From the IMG/VR virus record IMGVR_UViG_3300049001_000015, positions 1 to 22,473 of that record: a DNA stretch of 22,473 bases, one strand, 5' to 3'. The stretch comes from a virus. The position numbers and the translations under genes were made by a program. The notes under the pieces were generated by a model that was not told the origin of the DNA, did not search any database, and saw nothing but the letters and a program-made list of their open reading frames with translations. Positions within the stretch are counted from its first letter, which is position 1. Every line of letters starts with the position of its first letter. Positions 424-21,631 of the stretch are shown here, piece by piece.

Positions 424-1429
424 CACCCTGACCCGCCCCACTGATCGGGGCGTGCAGCGCGACAACCTCATCCGTGAGGTCGAGTTCCGCCTGACCGACG
501 CGACCGGGGAGGTTGACCCCGACGGTCGCACAATCGACGGCTACGGCGCCGTGTTCAACGCGAAGACCCGGATCCAGTCGTGGGAGGGCGACTTCGAGGA
601 AGAGATCCTCAAGGGGGCGTTCCGCAAGAGCTTGCGCGAGCGGACCCCGGTGATGCAGTACGACCACGGTCGGCACCCGCTGATCGGGTCGATCCCGCTG
701 GGCCGGTGGGACGTCACGGAAGAGGATGACACCGGGTTGCACGTCGTGGGCCGGCTCTCGGACAATTGGCTGATCCAGCCGGTGAGGGACGCGATCGCTG
801 GGCCGGAGGGCAACGGCGGCGGGATCACCGGGATGAGCTTCCGGTTCTCCGTGGTCCGCGACAAGTGGACCGACGTCGCGGGCAAGGTCGTCAAGGACCA
901 AGAGCTGAACGACATGCTGTGGTACGGCGCGGGTGAGCGCGGCCCGCTGCTGCGGCAGTTGCAGGAGTTGAAGGTGTCGGAGGTGGGCCCGGTCGCGTGG
1001 CCTGCCTACGAGGCAACGTCGGTGGGGGTGCGGGCCGCGGAGTCCCCGTTCATCATCGACTTGGGTCGGGTGGACCTGCGCACGGAGGGCGGCCGGTCGA
1101 CCCTCGCGAGGGCTGTCGCCCTCGCGGACCGGGCGTGTCCACGCGCTCTCCCGGAGCGCGAGCGGGTCGTCCCCCCGGGTGTGACTGGCGTCGAGAGCGT
1201 GGACACGGCTACGATCACCACCACTGAGCCGCAGACCACTGCGGGCGAGGCCGGAACGCACTCCACGGAGCCGCGATCCACCGACACCCCCGCAGCCGGT
1301 GAGCACTCGCCGACCAAGACGCCCCCCGGGCGCCGGGATCCCCGTCGCGAGCGTGCCGCCGCGTACGAGCGGATCCACGGGAGCCGGCGGGCGATGGACC
1401 GCAAGCTCACCGGACAGGAGATCGCCTAA
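416..1429 (+). CDS. HK97-type prohead protease (peptidase S78 family)
   Basis: A 337-residue protease that would cleave the capsid scaffold domain during head maturation. GTG at 416 is chosen because GGAG at 404-407 lies at good spacing and the start overlaps the portal stop. The frame extends upstream to 377, but that is portal coding sequence. The family motifs are visible: TIDGYGAVFN near the N-terminus, QYDHGRHPLIG carrying the probable catalytic His84, and GMSFRFSV carrying the probable catalytic Ser141. EVGPVAWPAYEAT closes the protease domain. Residues from about 215 to 337 form a Thr/Arg/Glu/Pro-rich extension that looks disordered and may be a scaffold-like or self-cleaved tail. This extension holds two copies of the 10-bp repeat, one of them written with the codons TGT and CCA that are rare here. 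Confidence 0.93.
   Translation: MADTLTRPTDRGVQRDNLIREVEFRLTDATGEVDPDGRTIDGYGAVFNAKTRIQSWEGDFEEEILKGAFRKSLRERTPVMQYDHGRHPLIGSIPLGRWDVTEEDDTGLHVVGRLSDNWLIQPVRDAIAGPEGNGGGITGMSFRFSVVRDKWTDVAGKVVKDQELNDMLWYGAGERGPLLRQLQELKVSEVGPVAWPAYEATSVGVRAAESPFIIDLGRVDLRTEGGRSTLARAVALADRACPRALPERERVVPPGVTGVESVDTATITTTEPQTTAGEAGTHSTEPRSTDTPAAGEHSPTKTPPGRRDPRRERAAAYERIHGSRRAMDRKLTGQEIA
1134..1207. repeat. Pair of CGTGTCCACG-type sites, opposite orientation, 64 bp apart
   Basis: CGTGTCCACG lies at 1134-1143 and its reverse complement CGTGGACACG at 1198-1207. Both sit inside the protease gene but in different reading frames. The first is read as GCG TGT CCA CGC, using codons unusual in this GC-rich gene, and the second as GTG GAC ACG. 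Start-to-start spacing is 64 bp, close to six helical turns. Confidence 0.75.
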
Positions 1430-3111
1430 TGGGCGACCAGACCCGCCGTGGCATCTCGAACCCGCCCGGCACCATCCTCGGATACCGCGCGAACGGCGCG
1501 CCGATCTACCCGATCGCCGGTGGCGACGGCCGCGGTGAGGAAGGCGGCGAGGGCGAGGGCGGCAACCGCCGGACCCTGTCTCTCACCCACCCGCAGGCCG
1601 TCAACCGGCTCCGGTCCCTCGACTCGGAGATCGGCCGGCTGAACGCGCTCGACGAGATGACCCCCGACGAGGAGGCCCGCTTCGACGAGGCGGTCGCCGA
1701 GTACGACGAGGTCGACGAGTACCGCAAGCGGCTGGAGCGGGAGGCGGTCCGCGCCCGCATCTCGTCCGTCACCGAAGGCGACCTCCGGGACGCCTCGACC
1801 CGCTTCGGTCGCCGCGCCCCCGCAGGCCGCACCGAGGGCGGCGACGGCTCGCGCGGTCGCGGCTCGCACGACTCGATGGACATCGACTCGATCATGGAGC
1901 CGGACTCCGTCGAGTTGGGCCGGTTCAAGAACCCGTGGGACCTGTCGAACATGCGCACCTTCGACCGGTCGTCCGAGCAGGTCACCGCCGAGTACCGGTC
2001 CCGCGCGCTGTCCGCGGTGGGCCGCATGGTCGGCGCGACCGACCGGATCCGCTCCGCCGCGACCGACCTCATCGAGCGGTGGGACGACGAGGACGGCCGG
2101 CTGTCCCGGCTCGCCCTCACCCTGTCCGAGCCCACGTACCTGCGGGCGTGGTCGAAGGCCGCGCGTTCCCCGGTGAACCCGAACTTCACCGTCGAGGAGC
2201 AGCAGGCGGTGCAGCGGGTGCAGCAGGCGGCCCGCGCGATGTCGCTCACCGACTCCGCCGGTGGGTACCTCGTCCCGTTCCAGCTGGACCCGACCGTCAT
2301 CATCACGGCGAACGGCTCGGTAAACCAGATCCGGCAGGCCGCGCGGCAGGTCGTCGCCACCGGCGACACCTGGAACGGTGTCTCGTCCGGTGCGGTGTCG
2401 TGGAGCTACGACGCGGAGGCCACGCAGGTCTCCGACGACGCGACCACGTGGGCGCAGCCGACCGTGCCGATCTACAAGGCGGCGGGGTTCGTCCCGATCT
2501 CGATCGAGGCGATGGCCGACGCCGCGAACGTCACCACCGAGGTCGGGCGGCTGCTCGCGTTCGGTAAGGACGTGTTGGAGGCCGCCGCGTTCGCGACCGG
2601 TTCCGGCTCCGGGCAGCCGACGGGCATCATCACCGCCCTGACCGGTGTGTCCTCGTCGATCGTGACCAGCGCGACGACCGACACGTTCGCCCTCGCCGAC
2701 ATCTACGCGTTGCAGGGCGCGCTGCCGGCCCGGTACCGGAACATGCCGTCGACGGCGTGGCTGGCGAACAACCTGATCTACAACCGGGTCCGGCAGTTCG
2801 ACACGTCCGGCGGTAACGGCCTGTGGGCCACGCTGGGCGACGGCCGCCCCGACGGCCTGCTGTCCAAGCGGGCTCTGGAGTCCGAGGACATGGACGGCAG
2901 CATCACCGCCGCCGCGGAGAACTACGTCGCCGTGTTCGGCGACTGGGACAACTACGTGATCGCCGACCGGATCGGCATGACCGTGGAGTTCATCCCCCAC
3001 CTCGTCGGCGCGAACCAGCGGCCGACCGGGCAGCGCGGTTGGTACGCGTACGTGCGGCACGGTGCGGACTCGGTGAACGACGCCGCGTTCCGCATGCTCA
3101 ACGTCACCTGA
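1429..3111 (+). CDS. HK97-fold major capsid protein with N-terminal scaffold domain
   Basis: A 560-residue major capsid protein. The ATG overlaps the protease stop by one base (TAATG), so translation is probably coupled. Residues about 1-50 are Gly/Glu-rich. Residues about 55-115 are highly charged and predicted coiled coil (LDSEIGRLNALDEMTPDEEA region), which fits the delta or scaffolding domain removed by the protease. After a linker the capsid fold starts near residue 271 with DSAGGYLVPFQ, and LPARYRNMPSTAWLANN and WDNYVIADRIGMTVEF follow, all typical of the HK97 capsid family. The length exceeds that of HK97 gp5 (385 residues), mainly through the N-terminal 270 residues. The cleavage site cannot be placed from sequence alone. 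It forms the icosahedral shell around the DNA. Confidence 0.93.
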   Translation: MGDQTRRGISNPPGTILGYRANGAPIYPIAGGDGRGEEGGEGEGGNRRTLSLTHPQAVNRLRSLDSEIGRLNALDEMTPDEEARFDEAVAEYDEVDEYRKRLEREAVRARISSVTEGDLRDASTRFGRRAPAGRTEGGDGSRGRGSHDSMDIDSIMEPDSVELGRFKNPWDLSNMRTFDRSSEQVTAEYRSRALSAVGRMVGATDRIRSAATDLIERWDDEDGRLSRLALTLSEPTYLRAWSKAARSPVNPNFTVEEQQAVQRVQQAARAMSLTDSAGGYLVPFQLDPTVIITANGSVNQIRQAARQVVATGDTWNGVSSGAVSWSYDAEATQVSDDATTWAQPTVPIYKAAGFVPISIEAMADAANVTTEVGRLLAFGKDVLEAAAFATGSGSGQPTGIITALTGVSSSIVTSATTDTFALADIYALQGALPARYRNMPSTAWLANNLIYNRVRQFDTSGGNGLWATLGDGRPDGLLSKRALESEDMDGSITAAAENYVAVFGDWDNYVIADRIGMTVEFIPHLVGANQRPTGQRGWYAYVRHGADSVNDAAFRMLNVT

Positions 3112-3509: not shown

Positions 3510-3884
3510 ATGCCGGACATCGTCCGGGCGCGCGAGCCGTTCTCCGTGCCGCTGCCGAGCGGTGTCCCGCTGCCGGTGAGTACGGGCGACCTGTACTACG
3601 CGGACGACCCGATCGTGAAGGGTCGGGAGTTGCTGTTCGGCCCGGTCACGATCCGGACGTCCGCGCAGTACGGGAAGCAGCCGGAGCCCGTGGACACGGA
3701 AACCGCTGACGCGACACCGGGTACCCGTAGGGCCCCGGCGCCGCGGCAGCGCGTGGACACGGTCCCGAAGGGCGAGCAGGAGAAGCCGGCCGCGGAGCGG
3801 CCCGCCGACCCGGGCGCCGTCGGGAAGGTCGGCGCCCCCGCGAAGCAGCCCGTCAAGCCGACGGGCGGCAAGCCCAATGCGTGA
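3510..3884 (+). CDS. Head-region protein, unknown function
   Basis: A 124-residue protein starting at ATG 3510, three bases after the previous stop. The first 55 residues look folded (VPLPSGVPLPVSTGDLYYAD, then KGRELLFGPVTIR) and resemble short proteins often found after the capsid gene in actinophages. The last 70 residues are Pro/Ala/Lys/Arg-rich and probably disordered. Two copies of the 10-bp repeat lie in this tail at 3689 and 3752, both read as GTG GAC ACG. The stop overlaps the next start by eight bases. No enzymatic motif is visible. A structural or packaging-accessory role is inferred from position alone. Confidence 0.72.
   Translation: MPDIVRAREPFSVPLPSGVPLPVSTGDLYYADDPIVKGRELLFGPVTIRTSAQYGKQPEPVDTETADATPGTRRAPAPRQRVDTVPKGEQEKPAAERPADPGAVGKVGAPAKQPVKPTGGKPNA
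3689..3761. repeat. Pair of CGTGGACACG sites, same orientation, 63 bp apart
   Basis: Exact copies lie at 3689-3698 and 3752-3761, both in the orientation CGTGGACACG. The encoded stretches around the two Val-Asp-Thr triplets are otherwise unrelated, so the 63-bp spacing is not due to a protein repeat. Confidence 0.75.
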
Positions 3885-4714: not shown

Positions 4715-5073
4715 GCGGCGGATACGCGGTCGCGCACGACCGGCTGTGCGTCGCGCTGGAACAGGGCGCGCAGGGGGTCCGGACGCTGCGGCGCCCGGGT
4801 GTCGCGGGTGAGACCCCGCTCGCGTACGTGCAGCCGCCGACGTTGTCGTGGGACGGGTTCGAGATCGACCCGACCGAAGCGGTGTTCGAAGTGATCCTCG
4901 CGGTCGCCGCGGATGAGAAAGCGATCGAGCGTCTGTTCGACCTGCTGCCGCAGGTGACCAACGCGTTGGACCAAGCCGAAGACGCGGTCGTCAAGTCGGC
5001 CGAGCCGGGCGTATGGCGGGCCGGCGCCTCCGAACTCCCCGCCTATTTCATCCGAGTAGAGGTAGCTATCTGA
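4711..5073 (+). CDS. Putative tail-completion / tail-terminator protein
   Basis: A 120-residue protein starting at ATG 4711, overlapping the connector gene by four bases (ATGA). The frame is open upstream of this but only as a shadow of the connector gene. It is alpha/beta with no special motif: ALEQGAQGVRTLRRPG near the N-terminus, a central strand FEVILAVAAD, a helix IERLFDLLPQVTNALDQ and a final strand ELPAYFIRVEVAI. Size, fold pattern and position directly before the tail tube gene fit a tail terminator or gpU-like protein, which stops tube polymerisation and joins tail to head. This is inference; a head-closure protein is the main alternative. The tail tube start overlaps its stop by one base. 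Confidence 0.62.
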   Translation: MSGGYAVAHDRLCVALEQGAQGVRTLRRPGVAGETPLAYVQPPTLSWDGFEIDPTEAVFEVILAVAADEKAIERLFDLLPQVTNALDQAEDAVVKSAEPGVWRAGASELPAYFIRVEVAI

Positions 5074-5486
5074 TGGGCGCCCACAACCGCAAGTTGAAGG
5101 AACTCACCCTCGACATCGGGGGGACTGAGTTCCAGATCCAATGCCGCAAGGCGGAGGTCCAGAACAACACCGATGACGGGGAGACTTTCTTCACCTTCGG
5201 TGGCGACGCGGGCACGTTCGTCGAGGCGGCCGACGACTCGTACGCCCTCGACCTGGAGTTTTACGCCGACTGGCGGTCGAACGGCATCTCCGACTACCTG
5301 TGGCTGAACGACGGGACGACGGTGTCGTTCCTGGTGCAGCACAACCCGGACGTGCCGGCGGAGACAGTGTCGTGGTCGGGTGAGTTGCTGATCAAGGCGC
5401 CGAACGCGCTCGGCGACGTCCGGACGACGGAGATCACGGCGACGACGTTGCAGATCGTCGGGAAGCCGGACTACTCCCGGCCGTAG
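5073..5486 (+). CDS. Major tail tube protein
   Basis: A 137-residue protein starting at ATG 5073, which overlaps the previous stop by one base (TGATG). A purine-rich stretch (GTAGAGGTAG) lies about eight bases upstream. The open frame reaches back to 5013 but that extension overlaps the previous gene. The sequence is rich in beta strands with acidic turns: KLKELTLDIGGTEFQIQCRK, FFTFGGDAGTF, SYALDLEFYADWRSNGISDYL and a closing strand TTEITATTLQIVGKPDY. This is the pattern of small siphovirus tail tube subunits, which stack as hexameric rings around the tape measure. Position just ahead of the chaperone pair and the tape measure supports the call. It is followed by a 58-bp gap carrying an intergenic copy of the 10-bp repeat. 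Confidence 0.82.
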   Translation: MGAHNRKLKELTLDIGGTEFQIQCRKAEVQNNTDDGETFFTFGGDAGTFVEAADDSYALDLEFYADWRSNGISDYLWLNDGTTVSFLVQHNPDVPAETVSWSGELLIKAPNALGDVRTTEITATTLQIVGKPDYSRP

Positions 5487-5507: not shown

Positions 5508-5523
5508 GGGCGTGTCCACGCCC
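5508..5523. promoter_or_regulatory. Intergenic CGTGTCCACG site with extended dyad
   Basis: This is the only exact copy of the repeat lying between genes. The 10-mer at 5511-5520 is extended on both sides to GGGCGTGTCCACGCCC, a 16-bp dyad broken only at its two central bases. It sits between the tail tube stop (5486) and the ribosome binding site (CGGAG, 5531-5535) of the next gene. It may be an operator-like site. As RNA it could also form a short six-pair hairpin. Confidence 0.55.
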
Positions 5524-5544: not shown

Positions 5545-6054
5545 ATGACCCTCACCACCACCGCCGCCATGAGCCTCACCGCGGTTCAGTCGAACCTGCC
5601 GGACCTGGGGACGTCGCAGGCCCGCCGCGCGCTGTCCGCGTCGCAGGTACTCACCCACGGCACCGCGGCCGGGCAAGCGGACCTCGTGTTCGCCGACACG
5701 CGCACGCTGTCCGCGAGCGGCACGGAGGATCTCGACCTCGCGGGGGCGCTCGCCGACGCGTTCGGCGCGGCGCAGGTGTTCGCCCGCGTCAAGGCCATCT
5801 ACGTGCAGGCCGCCGCCGGGAACACGAACAACGTCAACATCACCCGGCCCGCGTCGAACGGGTTCGGGCTGTTCATGGCGGCCGGTGACGGCATCGGGCT
5901 GCGGCCCGGGGAGACGTTCGGCATCCTCTGCGGTGCCGAAGACGCCGTCGGTCACGCCGTGACCGCCGGGACCGGGGACCTGCTGACCGTGACGAACGCG
6001 GCGGCGGGAACCTCGGTGACCTACAGCATCATCGTGATCGGGGCGTCCGCATAG
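5545..6054 (+). CDS. Phage structural protein, tail region, unknown role
   Basis: A 169-residue protein from ATG 5545 with CGGAG nine bases upstream. The N-terminal 45 residues are Ala/Thr/Ser-rich. The rest is beta-rich and follows a pattern common in phage virion proteins of unassigned function: LDLAGALADAFGAAQVFARVK, then AIYVQAAAGNTNNVNI, SNGFGLFMAAGDGIGLRPG, and TVTNAAAGTSVTYSIIVIG at the end. A 'NGFGLF...GDGI.LRPGETF' stretch followed by 'DLLTVTNAA' is typical of that group. Location between tail tube and chaperone genes suggests a virion surface or tail decoration protein, which is inference. The stop TAG overlaps the next GTG start by one base. Confidence 0.72.
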   Translation: MTLTTTAAMSLTAVQSNLPDLGTSQARRALSASQVLTHGTAAGQADLVFADTRTLSASGTEDLDLAGALADAFGAAQVFARVKAIYVQAAAGNTNNVNITRPASNGFGLFMAAGDGIGLRPGETFGILCGAEDAVGHAVTAGTGDLLTVTNAAAGTSVTYSIIVIGASA

Positions 6055-6955: not shown

Positions 6956-9900
6956 ATGGCGTCCACCCGGTCGACGATCGAGATCGAGATCCGCGCTGCG
7001 GTCGAGTCCTTCCGGGACGCGACCCGCGGCGCCGAGGTGCAGCTACGGCGGATGGCCTCCGCGGTCGACGACAACGAGAAGGCGTTCGACCGGTGGGGCA
7101 AGGGCATCGGCATCGTGTTGAAGGCGATCGGCGCGATGGGCGCGGTCGGCAACGTAGTGGGGTTGGTCGCTGGGCTGACGACGACGATCGTCAACTTGCT
7201 ACCGGCTGCCCTCATCCTGCCGGGCGCGCTGGTCTCGGCCGCGGTCGCGATGGGCGTGTTCAAGCTGGCGACGTCCGGGGTCGCGGACGCGCTCGGCGGC
7301 GACGCGGACGCGATGGCCAAGCTCGCGCCGTCCGCGCGGGCGTTCGTCGGGCAGATCAACGCGCTCAAGCCCGCGTTTGATTCGCTGCGCAAGTCGGTGC
7401 AGCAAAAGTTCTTCGAGAACTTCGCGGGCGACGTCAAGAACCTGTCGGGCGTCTACCTGCCGATCTTGAACCGGCTACTGCCTCCGATCGCGGAGGAGTT
7501 CAACCGGATGGGGCGCAGCATCACCCGTGCCCTGTTCGAGGCGCCCGCGCAGGACGACATCTCGCTCATCTTGGAGAACGTGGCGCTCACGCTGGGCAAC
7601 GCCCGGCAGTCGCTCGGCCACTTCGTGTCGGGGTTCATCGGCCTGGCCGCGGTCGGCTCGAACTACATCGTCCCGATCGGGACGGCGATCGACGGGGTCG
7701 CGTTCAAGTTCAAGCACTGGGTTGACCAGGGCATCGAGACCGGGACTCTCATGGAGTCCATCGAACGCGCGCTCGCGGGTTTCAAGTTGCTGGGCGAGAT
7801 CGCGACGAACATCGGCGGGATCATCGCCGCGGTGTTCCGCGGGTTGGCGACCGGGCCGCAGCAGGACTTCCTCACGGCGCTCCGCGACTCGACGCAGGCG
7901 TTGCAGGACTTCCTTAATCAGGGGGACACGCAGGGGCAGTTGGGTGCGCTGGGGCAGGCGTTCGCCACGATCTCCGAGGTCACCCGGACGGTGTTCCTCG
8001 AAGCGCTGCGGCAGTTGTTCCCGATCGCGGCTCAGCTCGCGCCGGTGTTCGCGGAGATCGCCCGCACGGTGGGCGACCTGTTCGTGAACGCGCTCAGGAT
8101 CGTGGGGCCGATCTTGTTGCAGGTCGCGACGTTCCTGAACGAGAACAAGACGGCGATAGGTGATCTTGCCCCGCTGGTCATCGGGCTGTGGGCGGCGTTC
8201 AAGGGCGCGTCGATCTTGAACTCGGCGATCACCGGGCTGCGCGGACTGAGCACCGCTCTCGGCGGACCGATCAACCTGTTGAAGGCCGGCGGGATCGTGG
8301 CGCTCGGTGCGCTCGCGGTGAAGCTGGACGAGATCAACGTGGCGACCGCGAAGTCGGAGGGTCGCCCGCTGAACGAGATGGAGGACGACCTCAACAACCT
8401 CGTCGGCGCGGGCCGGCAGTTGTTGACCTTGGACTTCAGCGGGATCTTTTCCGACATCGGGTCCGAATGGGACACGGTCGTCACCAAGTTCCAAACGGGC
8501 GAATCGCCCATCGGCGCGTTCTTCCAGCGGCTGGTCGCGTCGATCGACCAGACCGGCCAGTCCTTCGCGACGATCGGGACGTTCATCGCGAACTTTGTGA
8601 CCACGACCGGCCAGTCCTTCGCGACCATCGGAACCGCGATCGCGACCGGGTTCACCACCGCCGTAACCGCGGTCGGGAACTTTTTCACCGTCACCATCCC
8701 GGGCCTCGTCACGACCGGGCTGTCCACCGTGGGGACGGCCATCTCGACGGCGTTCACGAACGTGACGACCACGGTCGGGACGTTCTTTACCAACCTCGGC
8801 ACGTCGATGCTCACCGGCGCCACCACAGCGTGGCAAGGCGTGATCGACTTTTTCTCGCAGACGCCGGGGCAGATCGGTTTCGCGATCGGCGCCGCGATCG
8901 GCGACGTGATCTCGTGGGGGATCAACCTCGCGACCGCGTTCGGGACAGCCGCGCTGAACGCCGGAACCCAGTTCGTGACCGGCGTGCAGACGTTCCTGAC
9001 GAACGCGGTCACGTTCGTATCGGAACTCCCCGGCCGGATCGGCGCGGCGCTCGCCTCGCTCGCCGCGACCCTGCAAGCGAAGGCGGTCGAGGCGGGGACC
9101 GCGTTCCTGACGTGGCTCGGGAACCTGTTCACCGACACGACCACCCGGGCGCAGCAGGTGCCGGCCGACGTCGGCAACGCGGTCGCCAACACGGCGACGA
9201 CGCTGCGCGACCGGGCGATCGAGGCCGGGACCCAGTTCCTGACGTGGATCTCCAACAAGTTCACCGAGACGGTCACCTACGTGAACGGTGTCCCCGGCCG
9301 GATCGGTGCGGCGATCGCCGAGGTCGTCCCGGTCCTGCTGCAAAAGGCGCAGCAGGCCGGGCAATCGTTCATCGACGGGGTAACGACCAAGTTCAACGAG
9401 GCCATCGCCTACGTGAACGGCATCCCCGGCCGGATCAGCGCAGCGATCGGCAACCTGGGGAACCTGCTGGTCAACGCCGGACGGTCGGTCATCGACGGCC
9501 TGTTGAACGGGATCAAGAGCGGGTATCAGTCGATGATCTCGTTCGTCGACGGGATCGCCGCAGGCATCGCCGCCCACAAGGGCCCGCTGTCCTTCGACAA
9601 GGTCGTGCTCCGGCCGGCCGGGCTCGCGCTCATGGACGGTTTGCTCGGCGGGATCCGCGACGGCAACGATGACGTGCAGCGGTTCGTGTCGGGGATCGCC
9701 GCCCAACTCGCCGACCCGTTCGCGGCCAACCTCACCGGCTCGGCGCTGACCGTGTCCACGCTCCCGACCCCGGCGTCGACCCTGGCGGCGACCGCGCAGT
9801 CGCAGGCGATGGACCGGCTCATCTCGGCGATCGGTAACCAGGCGGTCAAGGTCGATGTGATGCTCGACGGGCAGCCGTTCGCGGCGATGGTGACGACCGC

Positions 9901-11450: not shown

Positions 11451-11460
11451 CGTGTACACG
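11451..11460. repeat. Perfect palindrome CGTGTACACG over a start codon
   Basis: A perfect 10-bp palindrome that differs from the main repeat at one central base. It covers the GTG start of the next gene. The same 10-mer recurs at 12144-12153 and 13550-13559. Confidence 0.6.
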
Positions 11461-13386
11461 CAGACTCTCCGGTTCCGGCAGACCGTCGTCGGGTCGCACC
11501 TCGCGACGTCGAGGGCGACGCTGCTGTCGACGTTGCAGTTCGGGGCGTCCCCGACGGGTGAGATGTTGCCGCTGCTCGCGGGGAACGTGCGCATGTCGGC
11601 GTCCACGGACGTGAAGGCGACCGCGACGATCACGGTCCCCGGGGATTATTGGGATCTCGTCGGGCCGTACGGCGCGGAAGTATTCCTCGAACGCGGTGTC
11701 GGGTTCGGCGACGGCACGTCGGAGTTGATCCCGCTCGGGTACTACCGCATCGACAAGCGGGCGCAGGAGTCCCGCCCGTTCGGGCCGATCGTCCTCGACC
11801 TGTCCGACCGGATCGCGCAGATGCAGCAGTGCCGCGCGGTGTACCCGTGGCAGGTGCCGGCGGCGACGACGCACCGGCAGGTGGTGGCGGCGCTCATCAA
11901 CGGGGCCGCGGACGGGGTCGGGACGTACGGCATGTACGGGCCGGACGCCCCGGACATCCCGGTCGATTGGTCGCTCGCCGGGTACGACCCGGACGCGACG
12001 ACGGTCGGGAACGATGTCGCGTTCGACGACTCGGCGTACGACTTCCTCGCCAAGTTGGTCGGCGCGAAGGGCGCGACGCTGAGGTTCAACGAGGACGGCG
12101 GGCTCGCCGTGGTGGCGCTCGAACCGGCCGCGGACGCGCTCGCCGTGTACACGATCTACGAGGGTGTGAACGGGACGTTGGTCAAGGCGTCCCGCAGCGA
12201 CGACCGGACCGGCGTGTACAACATGGTCCGGGCGGAGGGCTCGGACCCGGCGTTCCCCACCGGGTACCGGCTCGCGAGGATCACGGAGGCCACGAACCGG
12301 CTCCGCTGGAATGGGCCGTTCGGGCCGGCAGTCCGGTACTACGCGTCGCCGGTGTTGAAGACGGCGGACGCGGCGACGGAGGCCGCGGAGACGACCCTCG
12401 CGAAGTCGACGGGACTGCCGACGGAGTCGAGCCTGTTCACGGTGCCGAACCCGGCGCTCCGCCCACTGGACAAGGTCAACTCGGTGGTCGGTGGGGTGCA
12501 GGAGAGCCACATCATCGACGAGGTGACGATCCCGCTGCTCCCGGCGGACTCGTCGCCGTTGGCGATCAAGTGCCGGACCACGAACCCGGTCGGGCAGATC
12601 GAGACGGAGATCCCGACCGAGCCGGAGATCCCCGACCCGGAGGACCCGTCCGGCGGGGGCACGACGGACCCGGGCGGCGGCGGCACAGACCCGGGCGGAC
12701 CCGCGGACCCGGCGGACGGGACGCAGATCGCTGTTCTCGCAAACTGGGGCGCGGTCATCGACGGCGACGAGTGCAACGGCACCGGCCGGCCGTCGGCGGA
12801 CAAGTGGGGGCTGTACGACGGCGCGGGCCACGACGGCAACGGGCGCCGGGTGGCGTCGGCGTGGAACTACCACGACGGGATCTTGACCTGCCACGGCGAC
12901 GGGAACGGCAACACCGGCGGGGCGGCGTTCCACCGCGGTTCGATGGGGTACCGGATCGAGGTCCGGGCTCGGGTGTACAACACCGCGAACGACGGTGGCG
13001 ACAGGTATCACCCGGTGTTGATCCTGTGGCCGGACTCGGACCAGTGGCCGCAGGGCGCGGAGTACGACTACTTCGAGTGCGACGAGGGGGACTCGTCGTC
13101 CGGCGGGTTCATGCACCTGCCGAACCACCAGCCGTACCGTCAAGACGCGTTCGACATCCCGGTGGACATCACGCAGTGGCACAACTACGCGTGCGAGTGG
13201 AACCCGTCCGCACAAACGCTTAAGCAATGGACAGACGGAACCATTCGATACAATGGTTCCGGTCGGGTTGCACAAGCGCCGGGGCCAATGCACCCAACAA
13301 TTCAGCTTGACAATTTCGGTGGCGATCCACGATCCGCGAATTTCGATATCGCGTGGGTGCGCATCTACGCTAAGCCGAACGCATGA
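11452..13386 (+). CDS. Tail protein: DUF5047-like domain fused to GH16-type glycoside hydrolase
   Basis: A 644-residue protein from GTG 11452, three bases after the previous stop. Residues 1 to about 385 match the layout of DUF5047-type actinophage tail proteins: ATATITVPGDYWDLVGPYG, SELIPLGYYRIDKRAQES, DLSDRIAQMQ, then HRQVVAALINGAADG. A Pro/Gly/Asp linker follows (about 386-420). Residues about 425-644 form a GH16 (laminarinase-like) beta-jellyroll: ADKWGLYDGAGHDG, DGILTCHGDGNGNTGGA, GYRIEVRARVY, then EYDYFE, which has the family's E-x-D-x-x-E signature (Glu537, Asp539, Glu542 as the catalytic set), and HNYACEWNPSAQ. It would sit at the tail tip and cut a host surface glycan. The substrate is unknown. 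The last 60 codons are much lower in GC than the rest. Confidence 0.87.
   Translation: MYTQTLRFRQTVVGSHLATSRATLLSTLQFGASPTGEMLPLLAGNVRMSASTDVKATATITVPGDYWDLVGPYGAEVFLERGVGFGDGTSELIPLGYYRIDKRAQESRPFGPIVLDLSDRIAQMQQCRAVYPWQVPAATTHRQVVAALINGAADGVGTYGMYGPDAPDIPVDWSLAGYDPDATTVGNDVAFDDSAYDFLAKLVGAKGATLRFNEDGGLAVVALEPAADALAVYTIYEGVNGTLVKASRSDDRTGVYNMVRAEGSDPAFPTGYRLARITEATNRLRWNGPFGPAVRYYASPVLKTADAATEAAETTLAKSTGLPTESSLFTVPNPALRPLDKVNSVVGGVQESHIIDEVTIPLLPADSSPLAIKCRTTNPVGQIETEIPTEPEIPDPEDPSGGGTTDPGGGGTDPGGPADPADGTQIAVLANWGAVIDGDECNGTGRPSADKWGLYDGAGHDGNGRRVASAWNYHDGILTCHGDGNGNTGGAAFHRGSMGYRIEVRARVYNTANDGGDRYHPVLILWPDSDQWPQGAEYDYFECDEGDSSSGGFMHLPNHQPYRQDAFDIPVDITQWHNYACEWNPSAQTLKQWTDGTIRYNGSGRVAQAPGPMHPTIQLDNFGGDPRSANFDIAWVRIYAKPNA
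12144..12153. repeat. Second CGTGTACACG palindrome
   Basis: A perfect palindrome inside the DUF5047/GH16 gene, read as GTG TAC ACG (Val-Tyr-Thr). Confidence 0.55.
13205..13380 (+). other. Low-GC patch at the 3' end of the GH16 domain
   Basis: By hand count the 180 bases from 13201 to 13380 are about 55% G+C against roughly 70% around them. The first 60 are only 50%. Codons ending in A or T (ACA, CAA, AAT, CTT, CGA, ATT) cluster here and are rare elsewhere in the window. The reading frame is intact and the encoded GH16 end is normal in type. This points to recent recombination within the domain. Confidence 0.7.
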
Positions 13387-13676
13387 GCACCCCCGGCTAC
13401 CCCACGACCCCGCTCGGCGCGGCGCAGTCCGGCGCGCTCGCCCGGACCATCGTCGCACCCGGCGGCGGCCGGCCCCTCGACCTGTTCGGCGGCTACCTGC
13501 TCACGTGGGACGGCGGCACCTACGAGAACACCGTCTCGATCGGCGCCACCGTGTACACGAACCTTGCGTGCCTGGCGCCGACCCTGCTCGCGGTGGGCCC
13601 GGTCCTGTTGATCCGCACCCGCGCACGGCCGATCATTCTCGGCAGGATCTACCAAGCAGCCGTGGACACGGCGTAG
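13383..13676 (+). CDS. Small tail protein, OB-like beta barrel
   Basis: A 97-residue protein from ATG 13383, overlapping the previous stop by four bases (ATGA). After a Pro/Gly-rich N-terminus it contains YLLTWDGGTYENTVSIG, VYTNLACLAPTLLAVG, PVLLIRTRARPIILGRIY. The pattern (strand, dynamic loop, 'VGPVLLIR', '.IILGRI') is seen in small beta-barrel proteins encoded with phage tail-tip genes. A structural adaptor role is inference. Two sites lie in it: the palindrome CGTGTACACG at 13550-13559 and the main repeat at 13661-13670. The latter ends four bases before the stop codon. Confidence 0.7.
   Translation: MSTPGYPTTPLGAAQSGALARTIVAPGGGRPLDLFGGYLLTWDGGTYENTVSIGATVYTNLACLAPTLLAVGPVLLIRTRARPIILGRIYQAAVDTA
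13550..13559. repeat. Third CGTGTACACG palindrome
   Basis: A perfect palindrome, read as GTG TAC ACG in the 97-residue tail gene, 111 bp before the exact repeat copy at 13661. Confidence 0.55.
13661..13670. repeat. CGTGGACACG site at the end of a tail gene
   Basis: An exact copy just before the TAG stop at 13674-13676, with the strong ribosome binding site AGGAGG of the next gene immediately after. A one- to two-mismatch copy (GATGGACACG) is at 13735-13744. Confidence 0.65.
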
Positions 13677-14795: not shown

Positions 14796-14805
14796 CGTGT
14801 CCACG
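14796..14805. repeat. CGTGTCCACG site covering a start codon
   Basis: An exact copy in which bases 14797-14799 are the GTG start of the next gene. Binding here, or folding of the message, could affect initiation. Confidence 0.65.
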
Positions 14806-15198
14806 ATTTCTCTCGTCGACCTGCCGGACCGGATCGACGCGAAGATCCTCGCCGGCCGGCCGTTCCGGATGCGGGTCCCCATCTACGACCCGGACGGCGA
14901 CCTCGTCGCCGCGGTCGACATGTCCGTCGCGCGGGCGCAGGTCCGGCAGGCCATCGGGGATCCGTCGCCGCTACACATCTTCTCTTCGGAGGACGCCGAG
15001 CCGGACGCGCTGATCGTCGACGGCGCGGTGATCCTGGTCGCGACGTCGGAGACGACCTCGTCATGGCAAGAGAATTGGCCGGGCTCGGCGCCGGAGACGG
15101 TCGCGTGGTGGGACCTCGAAGTCACCGACGCGGACGGCACCCCCCGGCAGGTCAACGTCCCCGGCACGATCACCGTCGTACATCAGGTCACCCGGTAG
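14797..15198 (+). CDS. Small tail-region protein, BppU N-terminus / Ig-like fold type
   Basis: A 133-residue protein from GTG 14797, four bases after the previous stop. A purine tract (GGGGTGAGGG) precedes the start. It is beta-rich: MRVPIYDPDGDLVAAVDMS, ARAQVRQAIGDPSP, DALIVDGAVILVATSE, TVAWWDLEVTDADGTPRQ and the closing strand GTITVVHQVTR. The 'W.DLEVTD.DG....V.GTITV...VTR' ending is common in small phage tail or baseplate proteins near fibers. It may be an assembly or attachment module for the neighbouring fibers. That is inference. No enzymatic residues stand out. Confidence 0.72.
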   Translation: MSTISLVDLPDRIDAKILAGRPFRMRVPIYDPDGDLVAAVDMSVARAQVRQAIGDPSPLHIFSSEDAEPDALIVDGAVILVATSETTSSWQENWPGSAPETVAWWDLEVTDADGTPRQVNVPGTITVVHQVTR

Positions 15199-15637: not shown

Positions 15638-16780
15638 GTGGCGTGGCTGTTCGACGCGGCGACCGATAAGGTCCTGATCCCGTCCGGGTGGACGGGGTCG
15701 GCTGCGACGATCCTCATGTGGATCAAGCGCAGCGGGACACCGAGCGCCGGCGTCATCACGACCACGCACGGCAACAACCCGTGGCGCGCCTGGTCGAACG
15801 CGGCCGGGGGCGGATCCACGGTCGCTGGGCTCGACGCGCAGGGGTCCTCCCGGAACACCATCGTCTCCTACGACTCCGCGTTCTCGAACATCACCGGCGG
15901 GGCGATGGGCGACGGGCTGTGGCACTGCATCGCCCTCGTCATGAACGGCACCGCGTGGGCGCTGCACTACGGCACCGACGCGGCGGCGCTCACGAAGGTG
16001 ACCGGGACGAAGGCGAACGCCACGACGCCCGGTTCGTTCACGCTGTCCGACGCAGCCCCGGATTTCTTCGACGGGACGATCGCGAACGTCAAGCTGTTCG
16101 GGGCGGCCCTGTCGGACGCGGAAGTCGCGGCGGAACTCGCCACGTACGCGCAGGTGCGGTCGACGAACCTGCTGTTCCGGGCGACGCTGTCGACGTCGTC
16201 GAACACGCCGGAGACCGGAACGGCCATGACCGCCGGTTCGACGGCGGTCACCGTAGTTGCCGGCCCGACGGCGCTCGACGCGAACAGCGGGGCGCTCGCC
16301 GGGTCGACCCCGAAGGCGATCGGTGCGCTCGCCGGGAACCTCGTCGATCAGGGCGCGGTCGCGGGCTCGACCCCGAAGGCGGTCGGGACGCTCGCCGGGC
16401 TGGTCGTCGACCGGGGTGCGCTCGCGGGTACGACACCGTCGGTGGGTGCGGCGTTGACCGGGTCGGTCCCGGATGTCGGCGGGCTCCAGACGACTACCCC
16501 GCTGCCGGTGGCGGCGTTCGTCGGGAAGGTCATCGACCGCGGGGCGTTGGCCGGAACGACGCCGCTGCCCGTGTCCACGCTCGCGGGTACCCATCCGGCC
16601 GTGGGACAGTTGGCCGGCCGGACACGGCTGCCCGTGTCCACGCTCCGCGAGAAGATCACGATCCCGCCCGGTCACTGGACGATCGGGGTACCCACGATCG
16701 ACACCGGGTGGCACACCGGCCAAGATGGCGCAGACCTCGAACCCGGGTGGACGGCGGGCGCGGCGACGGTCGGCGAGTAG
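15638..16780 (+). CDS. LamG/concanavalin-like tail protein with 21-residue C-terminal repeats
   Basis: A 380-residue protein from GTG 15638, thirteen bases after the previous stop, with AGGGCGAG upstream. Residues 1 to about 190 form a LamG/ConA-like sandwich: VAWLFDAATDKVLIPSGWTG, TILMWIKRSGTP, WHCIALVMNGTAWALHYG, DFFDGTIANVKLFGAALSD and then EVAAELATY. Such domains bind glycans or proteins on surfaces. Residues about 218-343 are six tandem 21-residue repeats rich in Ala, Gly, Thr and Pro. The C-terminus (WTIGVPTIDTGWHTGQ) is short and polar. It probably is a fiber or tip protein reaching for the cell envelope. The two exact 10-bp sites at 16570 and 16633 lie in repeats five and six. Confidence 0.8.
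   Translation: MAWLFDAATDKVLIPSGWTGSAATILMWIKRSGTPSAGVITTTHGNNPWRAWSNAAGGGSTVAGLDAQGSSRNTIVSYDSAFSNITGGAMGDGLWHCIALVMNGTAWALHYGTDAAALTKVTGTKANATTPGSFTLSDAAPDFFDGTIANVKLFGAALSDAEVAAELATYAQVRSTNLLFRATLSTSSNTPETGTAMTAGSTAVTVVAGPTALDANSGALAGSTPKAIGALAGNLVDQGAVAGSTPKAVGTLAGLVVDRGALAGTTPSVGAALTGSVPDVGGLQTTTPLPVAAFVGKVIDRGALAGTTPLPVSTLAGTHPAVGQLAGRTRLPVSTLREKITIPPGHWTIGVPTIDTGWHTGQDGADLEPGWTAGAATVGE
16289..16666 (+). repeat. Six tandem 63-bp (21-residue) repeats
   Basis: Units start at 16289, 16352, 16415, 16478, 16541 and 16604. The protein pattern is GALAGSTPKAIGALAGNLVD-like: 'G-A-L-A-G-T-T-P-x-x-V' then 'T/A-L-A-G' then 'V-x-D-R'. Variation between units is modest, so the array could change length by recombination. 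Confidence 0.85.
16570..16642. repeat. Pair of CGTGTCCACG sites, same orientation, 63 bp apart
   Basis: Exact copies lie at 16570-16579 and 16633-16642, at the same place in units five and six of the protein repeat. The 63-bp spacing here is explained by the repeat period. Units one to four lack the motif. Confidence 0.7.
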
Positions 16781-17490: not shown

Positions 17491-17910
17491 GTGGACTCGA
17501 CGGTCATCGTCGCGATCATCACCGCGGCCGGGGTCATCCTCGCCGGGATCTCGACGCTGCTCGGGGTCCGGTTCACGCAGCGGCAGGCGCGGCGGGCGCA
17601 GGAGGCCACGGCCGCGCTCGAACGGGACAAGGTCGACGCGTCCGCCTACGAGTCCGCCCGCTCGACGTGGGAAGGCCACGTCGCGTCGCTCCGCGCGCAG
17701 GTCGCGGAGCTACGGGAGGAAGCGGAGGTGAGCCGCCGAGTGGGACGCGAGTTGCGCGACCGGGTAGACGAGTTGGAAACGTCCCGGTCGTCTGACCGCG
17801 CCCGAATACGCGAGTTGACGGACTACGCTCGCGACCTGCTGCGGATCCTCGCGGAACACGAGATCACGTACCCGGCGCCCCCGCCGGGACTGGCCGAGAC
17901 GGGACGGTGA
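17491..17910 (+). CDS. One-TM coiled-coil protein, candidate second holin or lysis regulator
   Basis: A 139-residue protein from GTG 17491, four bases after the previous stop. Residues about 5-25 form one membrane segment (STVIVAIITAAGVILAGIS). The rest is a long charged coiled coil, with RQARRAQEATAALERDK, SLRAQVAELREEAEVSRR and DRVDELETSRSSDRARI, ending in a Pro-rich tail. An N-terminal anchor with a long cytoplasmic or outside coiled coil is known from small lysis and antiholin-like proteins, but also from tail accessory proteins. The start region CGTGGACTCG (17490-17499) matches the window's 10-bp repeat at nine positions. Its stop overlaps the next GTG. Confidence 0.7.
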   Translation: MDSTVIVAIITAAGVILAGISTLLGVRFTQRQARRAQEATAALERDKVDASAYESARSTWEGHVASLRAQVAELREEAEVSRRVGRELRDRVDELETSRSSDRARIRELTDYARDLLRILAEHEITYPAPPPGLAETGR

Positions 17911-18095
17911 GCGTGGACACGACCGATGTGCCGGACGACCTCGAAGGGGAACTCGGCACCGTCACCGACGAGGAGTGGCGGGCCGCGCATGACCGCCTCG
18001 CCGCGGACCTCGCGGAGGCCGAGCCACCGGAGAACGCCGACTACCTCGCCGATCAGATGCGCTACGAGTGGAGTCCCCATGGCAACCCGGGCTGA
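17907..18095 (+). CDS. Small acidic protein, unknown function
   Basis: A 62-residue acidic protein from GTG 17907, overlapping the previous TGA (GTGA). A second in-frame GTG lies at 17913. The sequence is rich in Asp, Glu and Ala: VPDDLEGELGTVTDEEW, then AAHDRLAADLAEAEPPENA and DYLADQMRYEW. It looks helical with no membrane segment. The gene overlaps the endolysin start by 17 bases, so it is likely cotranslated. It may be an endolysin partner or regulator, which is inference from position. The exact 10-bp repeat covers its start. Confidence 0.6.
   Translation: MSVDTTDVPDDLEGELGTVTDEEWRAAHDRLAADLAEAEPPENADYLADQMRYEWSPHGNPG
17912..17921. repeat. CGTGGACACG site at the start of a lysis-region gene
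   Basis: An exact copy read as GTG GAC ACG. Its GTG (17913) is the second possible start codon of the 62-residue protein gene. Confidence 0.65.
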
Positions 18096-18993: not shown

Positions 18994-19026
18994 GCTCCCG
19001 GCGGGTTCTCTCGGCGCTCCACGAAT

Positions 19027-19059
19027 ACGGCCCCCACGCAACGAATGCGTGGGGGCCGT
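19027..19059. terminator. Bidirectional terminator-like hairpin between convergent operons
   Basis: ACGGCCCCCACGCA (19027-19040) and its exact complement at 19046-19059 form a perfect 14-bp stem with a five-base loop (ACGAA). It lies between the endolysin stop (18993) and the stop of the leftward operon (19071), so it can serve both directions. A T-tract is absent, as is usual in actinobacteria. Bases 18994-19026 show nothing else. Confidence 0.85.
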
Positions 19060-19070
19060 GTCGTGTCCGG

Positions 19071-19331
19071 CTACAGTCGCCTGCGTGGTATCCGCGGCCG
19101 GACGACCCACCCGGCTGCCCGGTGGAACCACGGCAACCCGAGAACGATCTCCCGGCCGAGCAGCATCCCCGCGAGCCCGCTGATCATGGAGATGAGCCAC
19201 CCGGCGTGGTCGGTGAAGTAGCCGCCGACGCACAGCGGGCCGAACAGGAACAGGGCGACGTACACGCGCGGGTACGTCTCCAACCACGGCCGCAGTTCGC
19301 CGGCCGTGTCCACGGGCTCCGGCGAGGTCAC
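19071..19331 (-). CDS. Two-TM small membrane protein, unknown function
   Basis: An 86-residue protein on the reverse strand. The start GTG (19331-19329) overlaps the stop of the gene above it (GTGA). Two membrane segments are visible, about residues 22-40 (RVYVALFLFGPLCVGGYF) and 44-66 (WLISMISGLAGMLLGREIVL), separated by a short loop. The C-terminus is strongly basic (VRPRIPRRRL), so it probably faces the cytoplasm. It is the last gene of the leftward operon and stops twelve bases from the hairpin. The two-TM shape is holin-like, but it lies on the opposite strand from the lysis genes. A superinfection or membrane-associated role is equally possible. Confidence 0.7.
   Translation of the reverse strand: MTSPEPVDTAGELRPWLETYPRVYVALFLFGPLCVGGYFTDHAGWLISMISGLAGMLLGREIVLGLPWFHRAAGWVVRPRIPRRRL
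19305..19314. repeat. CGTGTCCACG site near the start of a leftward gene
   Basis: An exact copy. In the leftward gene it is read as GTG GAC ACG, seven codons after the start of the 86-residue membrane protein. Confidence 0.65.
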
Positions 19332-19825
19332 GCGGTGTCCGGGTCCTCGGCGCCGTTGTTCATGAGCCGGTCGTCGATGATGTCGAGGAACTCGGTCCAC
19401 GCCTGCCGCTGCTCGTCGCTGGCGGTGTCGCGGAAGTCGGTGAACCACTGCTCGATCCGCTTCCGCAGCGTGACGAGTTCGAGGACAACACCACGCTTCG
19501 AGCAGAGCAGGCCGTACTCGTCGACGTTCTCGGCGGTGACGCGGGTTGTGCCGTACTGCCGCTTGTCGACCTCGTCGTACCAGGCGGGCCACATGAACCC
19601 GCCGCGGACCGCCTCCCGGATCTCACCGGCGCGGCGTTCCCGCTCCGGGTCGAAGACCCAGCGGCGGCGGACCTCCACGGGGGTGGGGTCCTGCGACCCG
19701 TCGTCGTCGACTTCGTCGGGCGGGTCGACGTCGGTGCGCTTGCTGATCATGGGGATCCTCTCGGTCAGTGGCTCCGGCGCCAGTCGCCGGAGCCGTCTGC
19801 GGTAGCGGGCGAGCGGGTCGTTCAC
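19328..19825 (-). CDS. Leftward-operon protein, unknown function
   Basis: A 165-residue protein on the reverse strand. GTG at 19825 overlaps the previous stop (GTGA), like its neighbours. An in-frame ATG at 19750 has a better ribosome binding site (GAGAGG, six bases upstream), so the shorter 140-residue form is possible. G/C at third positions of the extra codons argues that they are coded. The protein is charged. After a Pro/Asp-rich part it has RRRWVFDPERERRAGEIREA, then MWPAWYDEVDKRQYG, LLCSKRGVVLELVTLRKRIE and a helical end with DEQRQAWTEFLDIIDDRL. No motif is recognised. Its acidic and basic stretches suggest a soluble protein. Confidence 0.68.
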   Translation of the reverse strand: MNDPLARYRRRLRRLAPEPLTERIPMISKRTDVDPPDEVDDDGSQDPTPVEVRRRWVFDPERERRAGEIREAVRGGFMWPAWYDEVDKRQYGTTRVTAENVDEYGLLCSKRGVVLELVTLRKRIEQWFTDFRDTASDEQRQAWTEFLDIIDDRLMNNGAEDPDTA

Positions 19826-20493
19826 CAGAACGGCCCGTCCCCGTAGGTGCGGCGGCAGTCGCAGTCGTCGATGACGCAGCCGCCAGGCTCGATCAAGTCA
19901 CCGGGGACGTGGGTCACGCGGTGGTGGCCGCAGCCGCCGTCGCGGGTCGAGCAGCGGTAGCCACGGCTGGACACCGTGCCGTGCGGACCGTACGCCGGGT
20001 ACGTGTCCACGACCTCGACCCGCGCGGGGCCGGGGGTGAGGGTGGCGTCCCCGGTCGGGACCAGCGGGCCGTGAGCCGCCGCGAACTCCGGCATCCGGAA
20101 CACCGTCGACATGTCCACACGGACGTGCGCGGTCGCGCGGACCATCCCGACCGCGTCTTCCATGACGTACCGCTGCCGGCGGCGGAACAGCCGCGCCCAC
20201 CACCCGCGGGGGATCGCCACGCTCACCGTGACCACGTACGGGACGTCGACGTCGACCGGGAAGGTCTGCGACCCGGACGGCAGCGCCGCCCTGTACACCT
20301 CGCGCTCGACCTCCAACACCGCATGCTCGACGGCCTCGTCGACGAGGTTCGCCCGGTACTGCGCGTACCGCGGGTCGTCGAGCAGTTGCCGCGAGATCGG
20401 CGTGCGGTGCCGGTAGGTTCCCGGCGTGGCGACGATCCGCCGGTACTGGTACTCGGGTGACGGGTCGTCGCCCGGCCGCCACGCGGGGGTCAC
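19822..20493 (-). CDS. Leftward-operon protein with C-terminal cysteine cluster
   Basis: A 223-residue protein on the reverse strand, starting at GTG 20493 which overlaps the previous stop (GTGA). A longer open frame continues to 21030 but only as a shadow of the next gene. The middle is beta-rich with SGSQTFPVDVDVPYVVTVSV and a basic patch WWARLFRRRQRY. The last 50 residues carry a cluster of cysteines and histidines (CSTRDGGCGHHRV, then CVIDDCDCRR), which looks like a zinc-binding site. No family is recognised. Two sites lie in the gene: the exact repeat at 20002-20011, read as GTG GAC ACG, and the core variant CGTGACCACG at 20227-20236. Confidence 0.7.
   Translation of the reverse strand: MTPAWRPGDDPSPEYQYRRIVATPGTYRHRTPISRQLLDDPRYAQYRANLVDEAVEHAVLEVEREVYRAALPSGSQTFPVDVDVPYVVTVSVAIPRGWWARLFRRRQRYVMEDAVGMVRATAHVRVDMSTVFRMPEFAAAHGPLVPTGDATLTPGPARVEVVDTYPAYGPHGTVSSRGYRCSTRDGGCGHHRVTHVPGDLIEPGGCVIDDCDCRRTYGDGPFW
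20002..20011. repeat. CGTGTCCACG site in the leftward operon
   Basis: An exact copy. On the coding (reverse) strand it is read as GTG GAC ACG. Confidence 0.65.
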
Positions 20494-21260
20494 GGCGCCT
20501 GCCTGTCCGCGGGGTCGTCGACGACGAACGGCCGGACGGCCGGGACCGATTCGGTGGGGTCGCCGTTCGCGGTCTGCCGCAGCCATGCGGCGCCGAGCAG
20601 GGCGAGCGCGCCGTCCCGGGTTGTTGCCGCGCCGTGCGTGTCCGAAGCGACGGGGTCGAGGCTGGTCGCGACGTACACGGTGACGGGGGCATCCGGGTTG
20701 GATGCGAGGTCGTCCCAGTCGCCGACCACGGCGGTCGGGTTCTCCTGTGTCGCGATGACGGAGTCTTCGTCGACGCGGCGGCGCGTCTCGGCGGCGTCGA
20801 CTTCGGCGAGCAGGGCGAGCAGCGCCCGCCGCATCGGGACCTCCCCGTACGGCATGCCGCGCTTGATGGCGTGGCCGACCTCGCGGGCGGTGCCGAGTTT
20901 CATCCGGAGACCGGCTGCGGCGTCCCGGTTGTCGGCGTCGCGGAGGTCGGTGGGCGCAACGTGTCCACGGGCCGGCTCGGCGGGGAACCTGCGCGTGCAG
21001 CCGCACACCGCCCCGCTCTTGCCCCACCACTTACACCCGGTGGGGGTGGCGCCGCTGGCGACGGCGACCCGATCGTCGTGCTCGACGGGGGGATGCCCGC
21101 AGTCCGGGCAGATGCGCCCGGCCGCCCGGTGCGCGAGGACGGACACCGCGGCGGCGATGGCGTCCGGGGTGTAGCCGGTACCGAGCGCGTCCGCCAGGTC
21201 CATCACCCACCGGCCGAGCGGCGAGTCCGAGTCGGGCAGGGTCAGATGGTAGCGGGTCAC
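20490..21260 (-). CDS. Leftward-operon protein with zinc-ribbon-like cysteines
   Basis: A 256-residue protein on the reverse strand. GTG 21260 overlaps the previous stop (GTGA) and has GGAAGGAAG upstream; the frame is open further to 21344 but overlaps the next gene. After a helical N-terminus (GRWVMDLADALGTGYT, then AIAAAVSVLAHRAAG) there is CPDCGHPPVEH, followed by TGCKWWGKSGAVCGC, a four-to-six cysteine cluster that probably binds zinc. The rest is helix and loop: LGTAREVGHAIKRG, MRRALLALLAEVDAAETRRR and the C-terminal LALLGAAWLRQTANG. It may act on nucleic acid, but no enzyme motif is present. The repeat at 20960 lies in it in an unusual frame (CGT GGA CAC GTT). Confidence 0.7.
   Translation of the reverse strand: MTRYHLTLPDSDSPLGRWVMDLADALGTGYTPDAIAAAVSVLAHRAAGRICPDCGHPPVEHDDRVAVASGATPTGCKWWGKSGAVCGCTRRFPAEPARGHVAPTDLRDADNRDAAAGLRMKLGTAREVGHAIKRGMPYGEVPMRRALLALLAEVDAAETRRRVDEDSVIATQENPTAVVGDWDDLASNPDAPVTVYVATSLDPVASDTHGAATTRDGALALLGAAWLRQTANGDPTESVPAVRPFVVDDPADRQAP
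20960..20969. repeat. CGTGTCCACG site, off-frame, in the leftward operon
   Basis: An exact copy. On the coding strand it falls as CGT GGA CAC GTT (Arg-Gly-His-Val), three of them codons that are rare in these genes. This favours selection on the DNA rather than on the protein. Confidence 0.7.
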
Positions 21261-21631
21261 AGATAGCTTCCTTCCGGGTCGCGGTCCCGGCCGCCGCGGG
21301 CCGGGTGTTCGAGGTCGACGGCGAGCCGCACCCACGGGCACCACTGGTCGGCGCCCATCTCGGAGGTGAAGAACACCGACCGGTACTTGTCGATCAGCCG
21401 GCCGGACGCGCCGCGGACCTGCGTCTCGACGTGCACGCTCACCCGGTAGTCGATGCGACCGCCGACGGTCGCGCCGATGTAGACCGCGGTGATCTGCCGG
21501 GGCGCGGCCGGAAGGTCACCGACGACGTCGTGTACGACGAGGTCCGGCCACTCGTCGTCGCCGCGTGTCCACGACGCGATGCGGGACACCGAGTCGGTGT
21601 GCGCGGCGGGGCCGAGTATGTCGGTGTTCAC
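21257..21631 (-). CDS. Leftward-operon protein, unknown function
   Basis: A 124-residue protein on the reverse strand from GTG 21631, overlapping the TGA of a 39-residue gene (GTGA). A longer open frame reaches 21853 but is a shadow. It is alpha/beta with one aromatic-rich stretch: RIASWTRGDDEWPDLVVHD, then VGDLPAAPRQITAVYIG, DYRVSVHVETQVRG, DKYRSVFFTSEMGADQW and a final VRLAVDLEHPARGG. No catalytic or binding motif is recognised. Strand-rich ends and Trp residues suggest a folded soluble protein. The repeat at 21564 lies near its N-terminus in an odd frame (TGG ACA CGC). Confidence 0.7.
   Translation of the reverse strand: MNTDILGPAAHTDSVSRIASWTRGDDEWPDLVVHDVVGDLPAAPRQITAVYIGATVGGRIDYRVSVHVETQVRGASGRLIDKYRSVFFTSEMGADQWCPWVRLAVDLEHPARGGRDRDPEGSYL
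21564..21573. repeat. CGTGTCCACG site, off-frame, in the leftward operon
   Basis: An exact copy. On the coding strand it is read as TCG TGG ACA CGC, so it encodes different residues from the common Val-Asp/Ser-Thr copies and uses the uncommon ACA. Confidence 0.7.

Follow-up and report, generated by a model that had tools for sequence, protein, structure and literature searches.

A short quasi-palindromic word iterated along phage genomes of at least two structurally distinct lineages

The stretch of DNA analysed here (hereafter the window) is a 22.5-kb viral contig of IMG/VR (record IMGVR_UViG_3300049001_000015; 22,473 nucleotides) with protease, capsid, tape measure, tail and endolysin genes and, at its left end, part of a portal gene; outside these named families, gene calls are our own. 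The window carries 15 exact copies of the 10-bp quasi-palindrome CGTGTCCACG, every one at the position given in a preliminary description of the sequence, with 10 copies on the plus strand and five on the minus strand. These copies are listed below, together with the corresponding sites of contig G001, a syntenic relative of the window with ca. 66-78% nucleotide identity (ORF, open reading frame):

1134-1143, plus strand: capsid maturation protease gene; 64-bp pair with 1198; identical aligned position in G001
1198-1207, minus strand: protease gene; identical aligned position in G001
3689-3698, minus strand: ORF 3510-3884; 63-bp pair with 3752
3752-3761, minus strand: ORF 3510-3884; G001 site at the aligned position in opposite orientation, flanks aligning poorly
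5511-5520, plus strand: intergenic, between ORFs 5073-5486 and 5545-6054; aligned intergenic position in G001, with the centre flipped
9751-9760, plus strand: tape measure gene
13661-13670, minus strand: near the 3' end of ORF 13383-13676
14796-14805, plus strand: over the GTG start codon of ORF 14797-15198
16570-16579, plus strand: ORF 15638-16780; 63-bp pair with 16633
16633-16642, plus strand: ORF 15638-16780
17912-17921, minus strand: start of ORF 17907-18095
19305-19314, plus strand: inside minus-strand ORF 19071-19331
20002-20011, plus strand: inside minus-strand ORF 19822-20493; G001 copy shifted by 36 alignment columns
20960-20969, plus strand: inside minus-strand ORF 20490-21260
21564-21573, plus strand: inside minus-strand ORF 21257-21631

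As initially described, a single copy (5511) is intergenic. Dinucleotide shuffles of the window produced a mean of 0.36 copies and a maximum of 3 (100 shuffles) vs the 15 observed; the first estimate of 0.1 copies was slightly low. Under a third-order model, no 10-mer in the window is more strongly over-represented than CGTGTCCACG (15 vs 0.25).

The distribution of the word was explored by scanning viral contigs for two nearby copies and then counting over whole records, with scans for opposite orientations adding contigs L151 and L158; G001, G007, G002, L151 and L158 were all picked for containing such close pairs. With a reversed-word control of zero in each case, G001 was found to carry 61 copies in 76.7 kb, G007 29 copies in 62.4 kb and G002 13 copies in 36 kb. 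The word is also dense in four short contigs besides these three; L151 has 5 copies in 4.2 kb and L158 has 4 in 6.4 kb. Densities in motif-bearing phages range from 360 to 800 per Mb. G007 belongs to a lineage different from that of the window and G001, and nucleotide comparison with the window gave no match in G007 or G002. A motif-independent search based on capsid homology only identified L167 (2 copies in 5.8 kb) and L168 (6 in 11.4 kb), and in this second lineage the word is carried by a clade comprising L167, L158 and L168 (74-80% capsid identity), with none or a single copy in L169/G030 (64% capsid identity) and more distant relatives. In the first lineage, the relative G006, with a capsid 75% identical, has 0 copies in 73.8 kb, and none of five named relatives has more than 1 copy. 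The word occurs in two or more phage lineages that differ structurally; WhiB genes, a DUF2637 protein and the occurrence of actinophage relatives suggest that these phages are actinobacterial. A literature search for the word returned nothing relevant.

With a high GC content and a word built from common codons (GTG, GAC, TCC and ACG), a compositional, codon or repeat-insertion artefact has to be considered. Yet shuffling synonymous codons did not reproduce the density of the 10-mer: the window has 10 in-gene copies vs 0.3 in codon-preserving shuffles (maximum 3, 200 shuffles), as expected from the preliminary claim that coding alone does not account for the signal, and the window, G001, G007 and G002 have 10, 52, 26 and 10 in-gene copies vs 0.3, 2.8, 1.3 and 0.8, respectively. 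The encoded peptides are themselves inflated. G001 has 23 Val-Asp-Thr vs 8.7 expected (2.6-fold), 22 of them motif-encoded, and 18 Val-Ser-Thr vs 6.3 expected, including 15 encoded by the motif, while in G006 both tripeptides are near expected numbers and none is motif-encoded. In the window, where every such tripeptide had been said to be motif-encoded, this is nearly right, applying to 10 of 11 (all seven Val-Asp-Thr and three of the four Val-Ser-Thr). Further evidence against an artefact comes from the reversed word, whose counts in the dense contigs are near zero, from flanks sharing no common repeat beyond the dyad described below, and from a relative of similar GC content with zero copies. 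We regard the probability of an artefact as negligible; its coding and compositional forms are ruled out by the codon shuffles and peptide counts. These data reveal selection at the DNA level for a binding-site-like word, and CGTGTCCACG has altered viral protein sequence.

Several sites fall on GTG start codons (GTG TCC ACG, M-S-T), namely 14796 in the window, 1207, 10819, 11127 and 32733 in G001, 3124 in G007, 2950 in L158 and 3642 in G032, a relative of G007. Such coincidences are commoner than random placement suggests, the starts being our own calls.

The word is not surrounded by a cloud of degenerate forms. Over the four main contigs (window, G001, G007 and G002), exact copies number 118 vs 2.4 expected, one-mismatch copies 60 vs 52.6 and two-mismatch copies 508 vs 499, and recognition looks all-or-none. 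The seven near copies first listed in the window are all present, although CGTGGCCACG at 3933 had been overlooked; with 8 one-mismatch copies vs 5.8 expected, these forms are not in excess in the window and most of the listed ones are probably due to chance. Three copies of the centre variant CGTGTACACG, a perfect palindrome, may be an exception:

11451-11460, no strand: possibly functional CGTGTACACG, inside the gap between 9751 and 13661
12144-12153, no strand: CGTGTACACG, inside the same gap
13550-13559, no strand: CGTGTACACG

All three copies of CGTGTACACG are in the window, vs 0.47 expected summed over seven contigs. A few centre variants are enriched over these seven contigs, and include, besides CGTGTACACG, CGTGGCCACG (7 of 9 in G002) and CGTGCACACG (4 of 5 in G002). 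With 13 exact copies, 7 CGTGGCCACG and 4 CGTGCACACG, the centre seems relaxed in the G002 lineage (L080, L081).

Outside the core, the flanks are dyad-symmetric, giving GGnCGTGTCCACGnCC. Because codon position might mimic symmetry, the flanks were retested with a correction for codon position, and the symmetry held up, with an excess of G at -2 (56 vs 34.9) and of C at +11 (57 vs 37.5) and concordant intergenic sites. Dyad symmetry extending beyond the core is a feature of sites bound by dimeric proteins and argues for a protein with two-fold symmetry.

Copies occur about once per one to three kilobases, and the gaps between them are more regular than expected by chance in both G001 (coefficient of variation 0.67, P=0.0004) and G007 (0.61, P=0.004). 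With copies less than 100 bp apart merged, none of 4000 simulations was as even as the five contigs combined; choosing contigs by close pairs biases, if anything, against evenness. Gaps below 250 bp in the window measure 64, 63 and 63 bp, and the short gaps of G001 include 64, 63 and 61 bp. This 61-64 bp spacing is near six helical turns, a suggestive value at most since G001 and several other contigs were selected for close pairs. Comparison of relatives shows that copies turn over locally yet stay in the same regions. Four sites are at identical aligned positions in the window and G001, two with the centre reversed (5511 and 3752), and 11 of the 15 window sites are within 160 alignment columns of a G001 site (3.0 expected; 0 of 5000 shifts); after removal of identical positions, 7 of 11 remain within this distance vs 2.2 expected. 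Between G007 and G032, sites are displaced by 0, 9, 18 and 38 columns, the 18-column case being possibly an alignment shift. Regional conservation was not significant in two smaller comparisons, those of G032 and of G007 with L158.

The initial description favoured a dispersed operator system, an idea with which the binding-site-like selection and the dyad flanks agree. One form of it would be a set of operators and stoperators for the immunity repressor of a phage, comparable to that of mycobacteriophage L5 but with a palindromic site, which would stop transcription from starting at promoters and from continuing past dispersed sites. Several observations are in line with this possibility: both early and late genes carry scattered sites, the motif is, like stoperators, specific to certain clades, the intergenic copy at 5511 is kept at the aligned position in G001, and some copies are in or close to putative promoters, G001 24531 and G007 4315 being judged by eye to fall between the presumed -35 and -10 elements ahead of the same SprT-like gene. 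However, L5 stoperators are 13-bp asymmetric sites with variable positions, oriented with transcription and found within promoters or in the short gaps that separate genes (PMC9283540, PMC6550527), while copies of CGTGTCCACG show no bias relative to the gene strand (ca. 51 same vs 47 opposite over the four contigs) and are mostly well inside ORFs (98 of 127). Moreover, no tyrosine or serine integrase was found in the window, G001, G007 or G002 (no match to PF00589 or PF00239 in G000, G001, G007 and G002; contigs possibly incomplete, parABS not searched). The exactness of the word is also atypical, and the one XRE-type repressor candidate common to G001 and G007 sits beside another palindrome, TTGCGCAA, as its putative operator. 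For these reasons a repressor of the L5 type, or of the type that reads the conserved inverted repeats of phiC31, is less supported than a dispersed binding system as such, and we consider it rather unlikely.

The word may alternatively be encoded by the host and adopted by its phages, as a Chi-like recombination signal, a KOPS-like translocase signal or a methylation-linked, HIP1-like word. The word is common to structurally different phages and, like such signals, is exact and evenly spaced. Yet a close-pair scan of ca. 85,000 species genomes yielded 65 loci, mostly tandem repeats, with no genome beyond a few, when a 5-Mb genome at phage density would be estimated to give ca. 12 close pairs, and whole-genome counts in 396 Actinomycetota reached at most ca. 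23 per Mb. The bacteria surveyed do not show the density that, in the host's own genes, would have spoken against the initial proposal, and no surveyed genome offers a dense case of a host-wide word. Unless the host group is unrepresented among these genomes, a host word is unlikely. A palindrome with balanced orientation (62 forward and 56 reverse copies over four contigs) is also ill-suited to the strand asymmetry of oriented Chi or KOPS sequences, and overall we find a host origin of the word distinctly improbable.

G001 and G007 differ in their virion genes but have an early module in common that comprises SprT-like, WhiB, AlpA/MerR-like, HTH_17, replication initiator and XRE genes and a homologous FtsK-like C-terminus. 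Most of this module is missing from G006 and G030, the latter keeping WhiB-type and recombination genes. Relatives without the motif, which were expected to weaken the initial proposal, do exist, but they also lack most early genes of motif-bearing phages. The word is not tied to the virion genes, and its presence in both phages with the early module suggests, from only two informative genomes, a phage-encoded reader.

This reader might be an enzyme, acting in modification, nicking, recombination or FtsK/TraB-like translocation, instead of a stably bound architectural protein. In its all-or-none exactness and in having a fixed, asymmetric centre inside a palindrome, the word is similar to an enzyme target, and G001 encodes an FtsK/SpoIIIE-like protein (phrog_31069), of which G007 has a fragment homologous to the C terminus and G006 nothing. 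Against this, no DNA methyltransferase family was found in a non-exhaustive scan of early proteins, and the FtsK-bearing phages PIS 136, Mwe-JY05 and G014 are devoid of the word and, where examined, of any comparable dispersed word, which led us to reject the FtsK-like protein as the reader. An enzyme target is regarded as a possible but unlikely reading. The record of 'Microcystis phage Mwe-JY05' (PP395638.1; L161, L163, L164) has 73.8% GC, lysin A, an annotation in the style of actinophages and an FtsK-like gene that resembles theirs, and its stated cyanobacterial host looks doubtful as judged from these features.

Two other shared proteins were rejected as binders. The divergent promoter of the XRE repressor has TTGCGCAA-type repeats and zero copies of the word in both G001 and G007; these repeats, found between the XRE-like gene and its divergent neighbour (G001 48258-48300; G007 about 20905-20925), are a probable repressor operator, and the XRE protein probably acts there, which makes it a poor candidate. 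The PD-(D/E)XK-like protein of G001 and G007, a label guessed from residues with a low-confidence structure model, is also present in G040, where there are only 2 copies of the word in 49 kb.

Other repeats and genes were noted in these phages. A second motif, CCGATCGGGTGACA, is mostly located upstream of early genes in G001 (24488, 25888, 26406, 30123 and 32159) and occurs once in the unrelated G007, at 4292, near the same SprT-like gene; GGTAATGTCTCTC repeats resemble -10 regions. G006 (L082-L085; 48494-54667 and elsewhere) has intergenic AACAGGGGGGTT (10 copies) and TAACA-N4-TGTTA (6 exact copies), which resemble operators or promoters and have no relation to the 10-mer; a search for another dispersed word in this motif-less phage revealed only such intergenic repeats, which are of a different type. 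At 9971-11194, the phage contig G007 (L076) carries a gene like those of pyridoxal-dependent decarboxylases.

Based on the whole of these sequence comparisons, the explanation that we favour, to which we give about an even chance, is that CGTGTCCACG marks the genome-wide sites of a dimeric, probably phage-encoded binding protein. The word would be the invariant core of a dyad-symmetric recognition site, approximately GGnCGTG(TC)CACGnCC, read by a sequence-specific and probably dimeric DNA-binding protein that needs one exact site per ca. 1-3 kb, in either orientation and in no particular gene. This protein would be encoded in the early module common to G001 and G007, and would act on the whole genome by coating, bridging or blocking, in an architectural or global silencing role, instead of at single promoters. 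More tentatively, and with somewhat less than an even chance, the phages may encode a marking, condensation or whole-genome silencing system, in which an all-or-none protein reads a word placed every 1-3 kb and selection for this word adds Val-Asp-Thr and Val-Ser-Thr to viral proteins. Several points weigh against a dimeric phage-encoded binder: a centre that is strictly fixed and asymmetric (TC/GA) fits a simple symmetric dimer poorly; a host factor may play this part instead; the two motif-bearing genomes in which early regions are present do not suffice for a convincing correlation between genes and motif; and no binder was identified among the candidates examined. The AlpA/MerR-like protein of G001 and G007 (A2; in G001 at L073:11152-11529) stays a candidate, with a low-confidence model giving no significant fold match and with no named-phage or PDB match. 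Further shared proteins to be considered are the HTH_17/MerR protein at L074:1644-1886, the C-terminal domain of the FtsK-like protein and the WhiB proteins.

The CGTGTCCACG site offers a 16-bp probe for fishing out the binding protein, and GGGCGTGTCCACGCCC is the site DNA for assaying the shared candidate proteins. The word also offers a sequence test for assigning host and lineage, and illustrates that selection on viral DNA can be strong enough to change viral proteins.

Dense short iterated words are otherwise known as chromosomal signals, such as uptake sequences, Chi and HIP1, or as the degenerate repressor sites of temperate phages. The word described here is restricted to phage contigs, is exact and evenly spaced, has no preferred orientation and is common to lineages with different virion genes. 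HIP1 (GCGATCGC), a chromosomal and methyltransferase-linked word of cyanobacteria with 1000-2000 copies per Mb (PMC4390886), is likewise a GC-rich palindromic word, iterated ca. 0.4-2 times per kb. In contrast, CGTGTCCACG is a 10-bp word with an asymmetric centre, no methyltransferase was seen among the proteins scanned (not exhaustively), and no iteration in a cellular chromosome was found among the 396 Actinomycetota or in the pair scan. The DNA uptake sequences of Haemophilus and Neisseria are also short words over-represented in coding DNA on both strands, but they are chromosomal and have an excess of one-mismatch forms (PMC1939737), whereas CGTGTCCACG shows neither such an excess nor a gradual decay with mismatch load, and the surveyed bacteria lack its density. 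The stoperators of cluster A mycobacteriophages (L5, Bxb1), short clade-specific sites repeated ca. 20-30 times per phage genome, are the nearest functional analogy, even though CGTGTCCACG differs from those of L5 in being quasi-palindromic, exact, evenly spaced, present in both orientations and mostly located in genes. Architectural sites of the parS, Noc and MatP type are exacting palindromes with a genome-wide structural role that may sit in genes. No ParB-like gene was identified in these phages, for which no systematic search was made. Such sites are far sparser in chromosomes and unrelated in sequence to CGTGTCCACG, but they resemble it in being exacting, palindromic and orientation-free.

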